Shown here in pieces: positions 6,208 to 22,086 of a DNA stretch of 64,000 bases. Under the pieces are notes generated by a model, which was not told where the DNA came from, ran no database searches, and saw only the letters and a list, made by a program, of their open reading frames with translations. The translations under genes were made by a program, and so were the position numbers. The first letter of the stretch is position 1; the number at the start of each line of letters is the position of its first letter. The DNA is from Porphyrobacter sp. LM 6 (GTDB lineage Bacteria > Pseudomonadota > Alphaproteobacteria > Sphingomonadales > Sphingomonadaceae): assembly GCF_001720465.1 (NCBI RefSeq), contig NZ_CP017113.1:2666001-2730000 (forward strand), written 5' to 3'.

Positions 6208-7245
<1,038 letters not shown>

Positions 7246-7266: not shown

Positions 7267-7279
7267 GCCAATGCTTGGC
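7267..7279. promoter_or_regulatory. Palindrome GCCAA-tgc-TTGGC between pspF and the psp operon
   Basis: A perfect 5-bp inverted repeat with a 3-bp centre, 22 bp from the pspF start and about 95-105 bp upstream of the predicted psp transcription start. The position suits a PspF enhancer that would also autoregulate pspF, but no consensus supports this beyond position. Confidence 0.35.
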
Positions 7280-7319
7280 AAGATAGACCAACACTCCCAC
7301 CACAGAGCCCGCGAAAAGT

Positions 7320-7333
7320 CGCGGATTTCCGCC
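7320..7333 (+). promoter_or_regulatory. Promoter-proximal palindrome CGCGGA-tt-TCCGCC (candidate PspF or co-regulator site)
   Basis: An imperfect inverted repeat ending 12 bp before the -24 element. The 13-mer GCGGATTTCCGCC recurs exactly, with the same 10-nt spacer to TTTGGCA, in front of a second sigma-54-like promoter at 21102-21143 (minus strand). That makes it a likely operator rather than chance. Confidence 0.6.
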
Positions 7334-7344
7334 ATTTTCGCGAT

Positions 7345-7403: not shown

Positions 7404-7589
7404 ATGATCAACCAGCAACCCGCCGCCAGCGCCTTCTGGAGCTCCAAGCTCGGGCACGCCGCGATGGCCAGCATTGCCGCGATGGTGATGATGATCGCGC
7501 TGTCCTCGCAGATCCAGCCGGGCGCGGCCAGCGCCGCCCCGCTTGCCCACCCCGTGTCGGAAGCCGGCGCGATGATCGAGATCGCCTGA
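7404..7589 (+). CDS. Small membrane protein, first gene of the psp operon
   Basis: A 61-aa protein with one hydrophobic segment (about residues 18-36) and a short Ala/Pro-rich tail. The ATG follows a good TTGGGAGG ribosome binding site and sits about 32 nt from the predicted sigma-54 start, so it is very likely translated. I do not recognise a named family. It should be co-induced with PspA and could be a membrane partner of the Psp proteins; that role is inference from position only. Confidence 0.6.
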   Translation: MINQQPAASAFWSSKLGHAAMASIAAMVMMIALSSQIQPGAASAAPLAHPVSEAGAMIEIA

Positions 7590-20511: not shown

Positions 20512-20841
20512 ATGTCCGACGTCAACGCGCGTATTTCCGATCTCGTCACCAGCAACGATGTGGTGCTGTTCATGAAGGGCACCCCGCTGTTCCCGCAATG
20601 CGGCTTTTCGAGCCGCGCGGTCGCGATCCTCGATCATTGCGGCGTGGCCTACGAAAGCGTCGATGTGTTGCAGGACATGGAGATCCGTCAGGGCATCAAG
20701 AGCTTCTCCGACTGGCCGACCATCCCCCAGCTTTACGTGAAGGGCGAATTCGTCGGCGGCAGCGACATCATGATGGAAATGTTCGAAGCCGGCGAATTGC
20801 AGGCGCTTCTGAACGAACAGGGTGTTGCGAAGGTTGGATAA
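20512..20841 (+). CDS. grxD: Monothiol glutaredoxin, CGFS type (Grx4)
   Basis: A 109-aa protein with the CGFS active site in [16 protein letters not shown] (Cys about residue 27), the cis-Pro segment [19 protein letters not shown] and a glutathione-binding GSDI site. CGFS glutaredoxins carry [2Fe-2S] clusters bridged with glutathione and work with BolA in Fe-S trafficking. A strong terminator follows at 20986-21028. Confidence 0.96.
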
Positions 20842-20967: not shown

Positions 20968-20979
20968 AAACAAACAACG

Positions 20980-21091
20980 CCCAACAAAAAAGCGCTCCGC
21001 AGGACCAGTGCGGAGCGCTTTTGTTTTTCGGGGAGGCGCAACCCGGAGACCAGGAAGGGTCGCGCCTCTCGTCGAAGACCATTTGGGACCG
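20980..21091 (-). ncRNA. Candidate sigma-54-controlled small RNA
   Basis: Between a sigma-54-like promoter (predicted start near 21091) and the terminator at 20986-21028 lies about 110 nt with no credible ORF. It can fold into a 10-bp hairpin (21035-21044 with 21057-21066, one G-U pair) whose loop on the minus strand is TTCCTGGTCTCC, a single-stranded CCTCCCC-containing linker, and the terminator hairpin with loop CTGGTCC. The motif CTGGTC(T)CC thus appears in both loops and resembles an anti-Shine-Dalgarno sequence. The promoter region repeats that of the psp operon. The RNA is predicted only; ends are estimates. Confidence 0.55.
20986..21028. terminator. Bidirectional Rho-independent terminator
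   Basis: A 14-bp stem (AAAAGCGCTCCGCA with TGCGGAGCGCTTTT, 7-nt loop) is followed by T-rich tracts in both directions: TTTTGTTTTT on the plus strand (for grxD) and TTTTTTGTT on the minus strand (for the candidate sRNA). Confidence 0.92.
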
Positions 21092-21101
21092 CACCATGCT
21101 A

Positions 21102-21118
21102 TGCACGGGCCATGCCAA
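21102..21118 (-). promoter_or_regulatory. Second sigma-54-like promoter
   Basis: TTGGCATGGCCCGTGCA on the minus strand keeps the GG-N10-GC core and most of the -24/-12 consensus (two deviations from TTGGCACG-N4-TTGCA). It lies exactly 10 nt plus one T downstream of a 13-mer identical to that before the psp promoter. Confidence 0.65.
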
Positions 21119-21129
21119 ACCTGAAAATT

Positions 21130-21143
21130 GGCGGAAATCCGCC
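21130..21143 (-). promoter_or_regulatory. Palindrome GGCGGA-tt-TCCGCC before the second sigma-54-like promoter
   Basis: Perfect 6-bp arms with a 2-bp centre. The 13-mer GCGGATTTCCGCC is identical to 7321-7333, and ATTTTC plus TTTGGCA follow in both places. Likely the binding site of a shared regulator, PspF being the obvious candidate. Confidence 0.6.
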
Positions 21144-21303
21144 ATTTTTCCTACTCGGCCAGTGCTCCCGGATGGCACAGGTGTAAGCCATTCCGACACA
21201 TTTACCCCAAGCTGGGCAGGATAGAGCCGCAGGCCTAACCAATCCGGCAGGGGAGTGCCTTGGCCCTTGGCAAGCGCTTGCCGCAGCGCCATCCTCTCCG
21301 GCA

Positions 21304-22086
21304 ATGAGCACCGATTCCGCACCCCAGGGCATCCCTGCCGCCACCATCATCATCTTCCGTAACGCCCCCGATGGCGGCGCGCCGGAAGTGCTGATGACCG
21401 TGCGTTCGCGCAACATGACCTTTGCCGGCGGCATGGCGGTGTTCCCCGGCGGCAGGGTCGATCCGGCGGACTACGCGCTGGGCGAAGCCGTGGCCGCCGC
21501 CCACGCCATTGCGGTCGATGAAGTCGCACACCAGATCGCCGCCGTGCGCGAGACGCTGGAGGAAACGGGTCTCGCGCTGGGCCTTGCGGGCGATATCGAT
21601 GCGGCCAGTGCCGCTTCCGCGCGCGCCATGCTCGCCGAGACCGGCGCGCTCGCCCCGGTGCTCGATGCCTTTGGTTGGCGGCTCGATCTCGGCCAGATCA
21701 CGCCCTTCGCGCGCTGGTTCCCCAAGAACGAGAACATCGCCCGCGTCTATGACACGCGCTTCTACCTCGCTAATCTCGGCACCGGCGCAGTCGAAGTCTC
21801 GATCGACCATGCCGAGAACACCCGGCTGTTCTGGACCAGCGCACAAGGCGCGCTCGACGCGGCCGAGCGGGGCGAGATCAAGCTGATCTTCCCCACCCGC
21901 CGCAATCTCGAACGGCTCGCGCTGTTCGCCAGCTACGAGGAAGCCCGCGCCCAGGCCGAAGCGATCCCGGTCAAGACCATCGTGCCGCAGGTGGTCGAAG
22001 ATGGCGGCAAGCCATGGCTGACCATCCTCGGCGACGCAGGCTACCCCGTCACCGCCGAACTGCTGGAAACCGTCGCGCGGGGGTGA
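21304..22086 (+). CDS. Nudix hydrolase
   Basis: A 260-aa protein with the Nudix box core AAVRETLEETGLAL (about residues 79-92; REx2EExG kept) and an upstream GGMAVFPGGRVD strand. The longer size and the C-terminal extension resemble NUDT19-like/CoA- or nucleotide-diphosphate hydrolases rather than MutT. Substrate not determinable here. Its promoter must lie in 21144-21303, upstream of the divergent sRNA promoter. It is convergent with the following membrane protein gene. Confidence 0.85.
   Translation: MSTDSAPQGIPAATIIIFRNAPDGGAPEVLMTVRSRNMTFAGGMAVFPGGRVDPADYALGEAVAAAHAIAVDEVAHQIAAVRETLEETGLALGLAGDIDAASAASARAMLAETGALAPVLDAFGWRLDLGQITPFARWFPKNENIARVYDTRFYLANLGTGAVEVSIDHAENTRLFWTSAQGALDAAERGEIKLIFPTRRNLERLALFASYEEARAQAEAIPVKTIVPQVVEDGGKPWLTILGDAGYPVTAELLETVARG

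Follow-up and report, generated by a model that had tools for sequence, protein, structure and literature searches.

A predicted small RNA with a PrsR-type sigma-54 promoter and covarying complementarity to the Flp pilin leader in Porphyrobacter sp. LM 6 and its relatives

We describe a small RNA (sRNA) encoded on the minus strand at positions 20986–21091 of the window, by which we mean the whole stretch of 64,000 nucleotides of Porphyrobacter sp. LM 6 DNA that was analysed. Judging by its own promoter and terminator and by a conserved, covarying structure, this predicted sRNA is real, and the pattern of sequence change among its homologues suggests covarying complementarity to the start region of flp, the gene of the Flp (Tad) pilin. 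We consider it probable that PrsKR and sigma-54 induce this trans-acting sRNA, and that it pairs with the flp leader and represses the Flp pilin.

A conserved and structured sRNA gene

The predicted transcript runs from +1 at 21091 to the end of the terminator T-run at 20986, about 106 nt, and its assignment rests on a covariance model and on covariation. This agrees with a preliminary description of the same DNA, which had proposed a non-coding stretch of about 110 nt ending at a strong terminator. The fold of 20976–21091 was more stable than expected by chance (z −4.2), with none of 200 shuffles equally stable. It contains a 12-bp hairpin with loop UUCCUGGUCUCC (21033–21068, minus strand; TTCCTGGTCTCC on inspection of the sequence), in which double-sided changes were found in 7 of the 12 pairs, and an intrinsic terminator hairpin with loop ACUGGUCCU (20986–21020, minus strand), with 97.5% of cells paired and double changes in 7 of 11 pairs; the terminator stem-loop (loop ACTGGTCCT) carries six T at its end, at 20986. 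The first of these hairpins had been seen before but counted as 10 bp, and the letters of a CCTCCCC linker reported with it are present, although the first of them belong to the stem. Across an 18-sequence RNA alignment 92.2% of cells were paired, with both-sided changes in 14 of 23 pairs, and none of 500 shuffles did as well on these measures; when the structure was slid along the alignment, the paired cells dropped to 39–59%. The 5′ arm is only in part unpaired (0.09–0.92) in the structure predicted for the RNA of the window itself.

Of 100 homologues, 93 retained GTCTTC in the 5′ part, 87 had GTCTC in the hairpin loop, 84 had CCTCCC and 55 had TGGTC in the terminator part. The C/U-rich, anti-Shine–Dalgarno-like motifs of the preliminary description are present in the conserved sRNA. 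Its duplicated loop motif, in contrast, can be read in the window sequence but is not a feature of the family, since the terminator loop sequence is kept in only part of the genus. Judged by retention, the better-kept pair of motifs is the 5′ arm and the hairpin loop rather than the terminator loop.

Of 41 genomes searched by blastn with the sRNA unit, 18 gave a match, none of them outside the genus, for which the set contained 25 genomes including the own one. A covariance search of related genomes had been proposed in the preliminary description, and with a model built from the 18-locus RNA alignment (R1) it recovered the sRNA in 108 of 114 genus genomes, including 93 of the 93 of high quality, with the promoter element described below at 100 of 100 tabulated loci. 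Across the order, the model matched 76 of 296 genomes. The own genus accounts for 24 of them and other genera of its family for 47; the remaining five, in other families of the order, were weak matches at 31 bits or less. An antisense match (L149, minus strand) was left out, and of six further loci scored with the model L183, a Sphingomonadaceae record, was negative and L192 weak (21 bits). No Rfam family matched the sRNA at threshold; membership of ar14 (RF02344) was rejected at 32.2 bits, below the gathering score of 58.8, as was that of BjrC1505 (RF02356) at 22.3 bits, below 50, and ten other homologous loci gave no match to ar14 up to an E value of 1.

In the window, the sRNA gene has as neighbours a gene for a GrxD-like monothiol glutaredoxin (20512–20841, plus strand) and a divergent NUDIX-like gene (21304–22086, plus strand), both taken from the open reading frame list and named by inspection. 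Of 106 sRNA loci, 97 had a recognisable GrxD-like fragment. Separately, we observed a recurring element of the form TGTCGGCnTGTnTTACAG[GT][CT]AGTT...TAACGCAAA at L040 (G000:C1:2475040), with like sites in G047, G055, G072 and G074.

Promoter and candidate activator

A GG-N10-GC sigma-54 element had been noted upstream of the RNA, and we found this −24/−12 box, TGGCATGGCCCGTGCA, at 21117–21102 on the minus strand, with 13 of 13 letters at 99 of 100 genus loci. Absent from the preliminary description was an upstream activating element, TGTCGGAATGGCTTACA, at 21198–21182 (minus strand), which has the form TGTCGG-N6-TTACA, ends 64 nt before the box and is a candidate PrsR site. At least 10 of its 11 letters were present at 100 of 100 loci of the genus and at least 9 of 11 at 28 of 28 examined outside it, where the composite of element and box was found throughout. 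The spacer between the two measured 64 nt at 88 of the 100 genus loci, 65 at eight, 63 at three and 66 at one. These genus counts come from a table of 100 of the 108 genomes with a model match, and the outside count from the best 28 of 52; G009, G016, G019, G020, G021 and G023 stand outside the table and were read separately, and the weak-match genomes G053 and G078 are absent from it and unscored. The sole box exception in the table was G008 (95% complete), in which the −12 box is damaged and no PrsR scored over the cut-off. Outside the table, the −12 GC is missing in G016. In clades without the 13-mer discussed below (L012, L013, L014, L016 and L023), (G)NTAACCA occurs between element and box, and we take it to resemble a CtrA half-site.

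As described in the accessible part of Haft et al (2006, PMC1569441), PEP-CTERM genes of proteobacteria carry a 17-nt motif 1 ending TTTACA, assigned to PrsR, which a sigma-54 motif 2 follows after 62.8 ± 10.6 nt. The sRNA element fits motif 1 as worded there, with its own copy ending CTTACA, the sRNA spacer of 63–66 nt, counted to TGGCA, lies within the published range (PMC1569441), and motif 2 (−24 GG/−12 GC) is matched at 99 of 100 sRNA loci. The own genome encodes PrsR (TIGR02915, 661.5 bits; cut-off 502.6), PrsK beside it (316.4 bits; cut-off 300) and an EpsB-type TIGR03013 protein; for PrsT there was only a weak match of 50 bits (cut-off 312). PrsR scored over the cut-off in 103 of the 114 genus genomes; it did not do so in G002, G056, G008 and eight more, the majority of which are incomplete.

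When 632 kb of DNA was scanned for the composite, it turned up at this sRNA, at three PEP-CTERM genes of the genus (in G023 and G009) and nowhere else, and the control gave one match in 20 shuffled windows. The scanned DNA left out sRNA-centred loci except the window and L041 and included 16 PF07589 loci added for this test; the scan was prefiltered on the first letters and is non-exhaustive. A similar motif, TGTCGGTAAA-N-[CT]TTACA, was located 2.2–3.7 kb from prsR in all 12 genomes that had been selected solely on the position of PrsR, as well as in eight further genomes picked because the motif was already known there. An EpsB (TIGR03013-type) homologue begins 55–66 nt from the motif in 17 of the 20 genomes, 10 of them from the first set of 12, the exceptions being G041, G050 and G082; none of the 20 prsR/EPS loci (L230–L249) had a full sigma-54 box behind the motif. 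Our guess from this arrangement is that the motif is a candidate PrsR autoregulatory site. Before epsB, TGTCGGTAAACTTTACA is a candidate PrsR site. At L037 (G000:C1:225616), a perfect TGTCGG-N6-TTACA precedes a second flp-like pilin gene, whose −24/−12 box is weak, too weak for this gene to be counted as a PrsR-type promoter.

The preliminary description had assigned the sRNA to PspF on the likeness of its promoter to that of psp. The shared 13-mer, GCGGATTTCCGCC, does occur at 21142–21130 (minus strand) and 7321–7333 (plus strand), each copy 10 nt before TTTGGCA. The assignment to PspF and the co-induction with Psp were not borne out, as 22 of 22 psp promoters carry another upstream element, CCAATGnTTGGCAAnAGnnACCAA, of which the best match at the sRNA has 11 of 20 letters. 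These promoters are the window's own, 19 gathered for comparison, and those of G024 and G020; 24 regions were examined, and G008, without a psp promoter, and G010 (L020), a non-psp region, lie outside the counts. The psp element, at 7268–7291 (plus strand) in the window, outside the sRNA unit, matched 17–20 of 20 letters in each promoter and precedes TGGCA by 54 nt, in one case by 55. Overlapping the divergent promoter of pspF (6208–7245, minus strand; TIGR02974, 480.6 bits; cut-off 443.55), it is probably a PspF binding site with autoregulation. TGTCGG-N6-TTACA was not found in the psp regions, where the best matches had 6–9 of 11 letters. The psp boxes were full (13 of 13) in 20 of the 22, with 11 letters in G002 and G056, and PspF scored over the cut-off in 102 of the 114 genus genomes. 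As for the supposed role in envelope stress, no positive evidence emerged from this analysis.

In the window's clade, an AAAA-N-GGCGGATTTCCGCCATTTT-like stretch lies just upstream of −24 in both sRNA and psp promoters (window 21150–21120 and 7313–7340), and a third sigma-54 box preceded by it is that of L020 in G010, at a small ORF (MYALDASNR...). Directly behind the psp promoter of the window is a small ORF (MINQQPAAS..., 7404–7589), with similar ORFs in related genomes.

Which activator acts at the sRNA promoter has to be weighed between PrsR, PspF and others. An envelope-stress sRNA driven by PspF and co-induced with psp appears very improbable to us: the 13-mer, ATTTTC and the 10-nt spacing before TTTGGCA are common to both window promoters, a similar stretch recurs at several of the clade's sRNA and psp promoters, and pspF is present in two near-complete genomes that lack PrsR (G002 and G056), but the 13-mer is well kept (at least 9 of 13 letters in place) in only 36 of 100 homologues (21130–21142, minus strand, in the window) as against 100 of 100 for TGTCGG-N6-TTACA, which the psp promoters in turn lack. 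A stretch like the 13-mer also precedes the non-psp sigma-54 box of G010 (L020), a genome whose pspF lies on another contig. With the psp element absent from the sRNA, PspF was rejected as activator on the promoter comparison. G002 and G056 (99% complete) have PspF and no PrsR over the cut-off, and retain the sRNA, 10 of 11 letters of the element, the 13/13 box and 9/9 flp complementarity; barring a recent loss of PrsR, it cannot be the sole possible activator. This persistence of promoter and target complementarity would suit a different sigma-54 activator that shares or took over the TGTCGG-N6-TTACA site, and candidates exist, since in the own genome 7 of 10 PF00158 matches look activator-like on inspection, the other three resembling Clp/MoxR-type ATPases. 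We nevertheless regard such a substitution as unlikely, given that the composite also stands before three PEP-CTERM genes, that a similar 17-mer is found at the prsR/EPS locus, that the published PrsR motif, so far as the accessible text describes it, fits the element (PMC1569441), and that G008, with no PrsR over the cut-off, has a damaged −12 box.

Complementarity to the flp leader

The 5′ seed arm of the sRNA, UGGUCUUCG (21073–21081, minus strand), is complementary to CGAAGACCA, located 16–24 nt upstream of the start codon of the Flp (Tad) pilin, and covaries with flp leaders in 60 genomes. In the own genome the flp leader before ATG reads GGGTACCGAAGACCAAACCAGGAGACTACC, and among genes with GGAGACCA before ATG the flp leader of G024 also contains GAAGACCA. 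The Flp family PF04964 was found in 110 of the 114 genus genomes. From 71 genomes with flp loci, seven whose leaders were missed by the ORF filter and two without the sRNA were removed, leaving 62, and a GAAGAC-like site was present in 60 of these (none in G067 and G093). Arm and leader pair at 9 of 9 positions in 36 of the 60 genomes and at 8 or more in 54, and some pair at 6 or 7. Since the search for the target site relied on its core letters, only the outer positions test the pairing. All 60 genomes form the outer pair 2/8 (permutation 5e-5) and 57 of them form pair 1/9 (permutation 0.013), and the total over all pairs was reached by none of 20,000 permutations, phylogeny being ignored in all three tests. 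Joint changes were found in G118, where UUAA in the sRNA meets UUAA in flp, in G098 (UCU with AGA), and in G015, G100, G050, G002, G056 and G080 (CAG or UAG with CUG). The A/U variants, with A in the sRNA and U in flp, form one clade on a rough tree of partial GrxD sequences, and the relatives next to this clade have G in the sRNA opposite U in flp, the usual route via a wobble pair.

In the own genome, the arm/leader duplex was predicted at −15.9 kcal/mol, a value equalled by one of 62 start regions defined crudely in the window. A second contact could involve the hairpin-loop motif CCUGGUCUCC (21045–21054, minus strand), whose possible partner, ACCAGGAGAC(U/C), surrounds the flp Shine–Dalgarno sequence; the loop/leader duplex reached −12.7 kcal/mol, equalled or bettered by 7 of the 62 regions. 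CTGGT is found in 81 of 100 loops and CCTGGT in 71, and the corresponding loop sequence CCUGGU can pair with CCAGGAGAC, present in 63 of 77 flp leaders and in none of 48 start regions taken crudely from the window. We found no covariation at this loop/Shine–Dalgarno site of the flp leaders. The two sites lie in the same 5′–3′ order in both RNAs, an order in which a single simple helix cannot accommodate both duplexes of one molecule, and in the predicted fold of the flp leader part of the arm site is paired. The preliminary description had expected targets with GGAGACCAG-type sites near their start. Such sites are present before some genes, and the flp site does lie near the start codon, but the best-supported target site is the one complementary to the 5′ arm.

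Extra flp copies (L361, L364, L366, L367, L370, L378 and L380) have leaders with GGAGACCA and without the GAAGAC site; from their sequence, they are perhaps differently regulated paralogues.

Two other readings of the flp complementarity deserve consideration. The leader might be conserved for ribosome standby or protein binding, the match to the sRNA being coincidental and the true targets elsewhere. Conservation indeed extends past the complementary stretch, with GGGTACCGAAGAC in 47 of 77 flp leaders, and other genes share GGAGACCA before ATG, with 17 matches in the own genome versus 1 for the reversed control and 49 versus 5 in four other genomes. As proof of targets this motif alone was rejected; it is enriched, but it is Shine–Dalgarno-like and few matches are orthologous (only rplE, ftsA, msrB and a SnoaL-like gene). 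Against coincidence stand the outer positions that change in step, among them the joint changes peculiar to the lineages of G118 and G098, and we hold it to be unlikely. A genuine pairing might instead activate or stabilise flp, as the leader can fold on itself and pairing upstream of the Shine–Dalgarno sequence could in principle free it. We give this little credence, however, because the ribosome-binding region contains both contacts, the arm site at −24 to −16 and the loop site over AGGAG, and the C/U-rich motifs mimic an anti-Shine–Dalgarno sequence. With the two sites so placed, the arrangement naturally suggests that pilin translation is repressed.

Proposed regulation and relation to known systems

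The sRNA would belong to a trans-acting family confined to one alphaproteobacterial family. In the repressive circuit that we favour, PrsR, with its kinase PrsK, would bind TGTCGG-N6-TTACA and activate sigma-54 RNA polymerase bound 64 nt downstream. An RNA of about 106 nt would then be made from the predicted start site and end at its own terminator. Its arm UGGUCUUCG would pair with CGAAGACCA, 16–24 nt upstream of the flp start codon, and the loop CCUGGU(CUCC) may pair with the adjacent ACCAGGAGAC, which contains the Shine–Dalgarno sequence. Initiation of pilin translation would thereby be blocked, and pili may go down when the exosortase/EPS programme is on. PrsKR, hitherto tied to PEP-CTERM genes, would on this account have an RNA arm serving as a family-wide pili-to-matrix switch that co-evolves with its pilin target, a broader proposal to which we assign even chances. 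A PrsR-type promoter together with a co-varying target provides a testable link between exosortase/EPS and Tad pili, and the sRNA family offers natural compensatory variants for the study of seed–target co-evolution.

Searches of the open-access literature, which covers few of the subscription journals, turned up no paper on such an sRNA at the level of titles and opening lines of abstracts. A close regulatory parallel is the PrsK–PrsR/PEP-CTERM regulon, with which the sRNA locus shares an enhancer motif ending (T/C)TTACA, a spacer of about 63–64 nt, a sigma-54 box and the presence of genes for both PrsK and PrsR; the transcript here is a predicted sRNA, whereas there it is a PEP-CTERM mRNA, and the accessible part of Haft et al (2006, PMC1569441) mentions no sRNA. 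A sigma-54 box and a clade-specific 13-mer are common to the sRNA and psp, as if to a PspF regulon, from which the sRNA promoter differs by the missing psp upstream element. In its layout of a hairpin and a terminator hairpin, both with C/U-rich loops, the RNA resembles ar14, which we take to be the same RNA as NfeR1, although it is without the CCUCCUCCC loops and has a different promoter. NfeR1 pairs with a translation initiation region, according to the accessible part of its description (PMC10746234).

Taken as a whole, the unit of promoter and RNA recalls another group of regulators in several respects: a −24/−12 promoter, an upstream enhancer element, a short RNA, an intrinsic terminator and predicted pairing near start codons. 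This group is that of the trans-acting sRNAs activated by sigma-54 and a bEBP, such as Qrr of Vibrio and GlmY. Unlike these, the sRNA described here has a PrsR-like enhancer element, a Tad pilin as its predicted target and no Rfam match at threshold. The kind, a sigma-54-driven base-pairing sRNA, is known; the family is apparently undescribed, and its regulator and target are apparently new.
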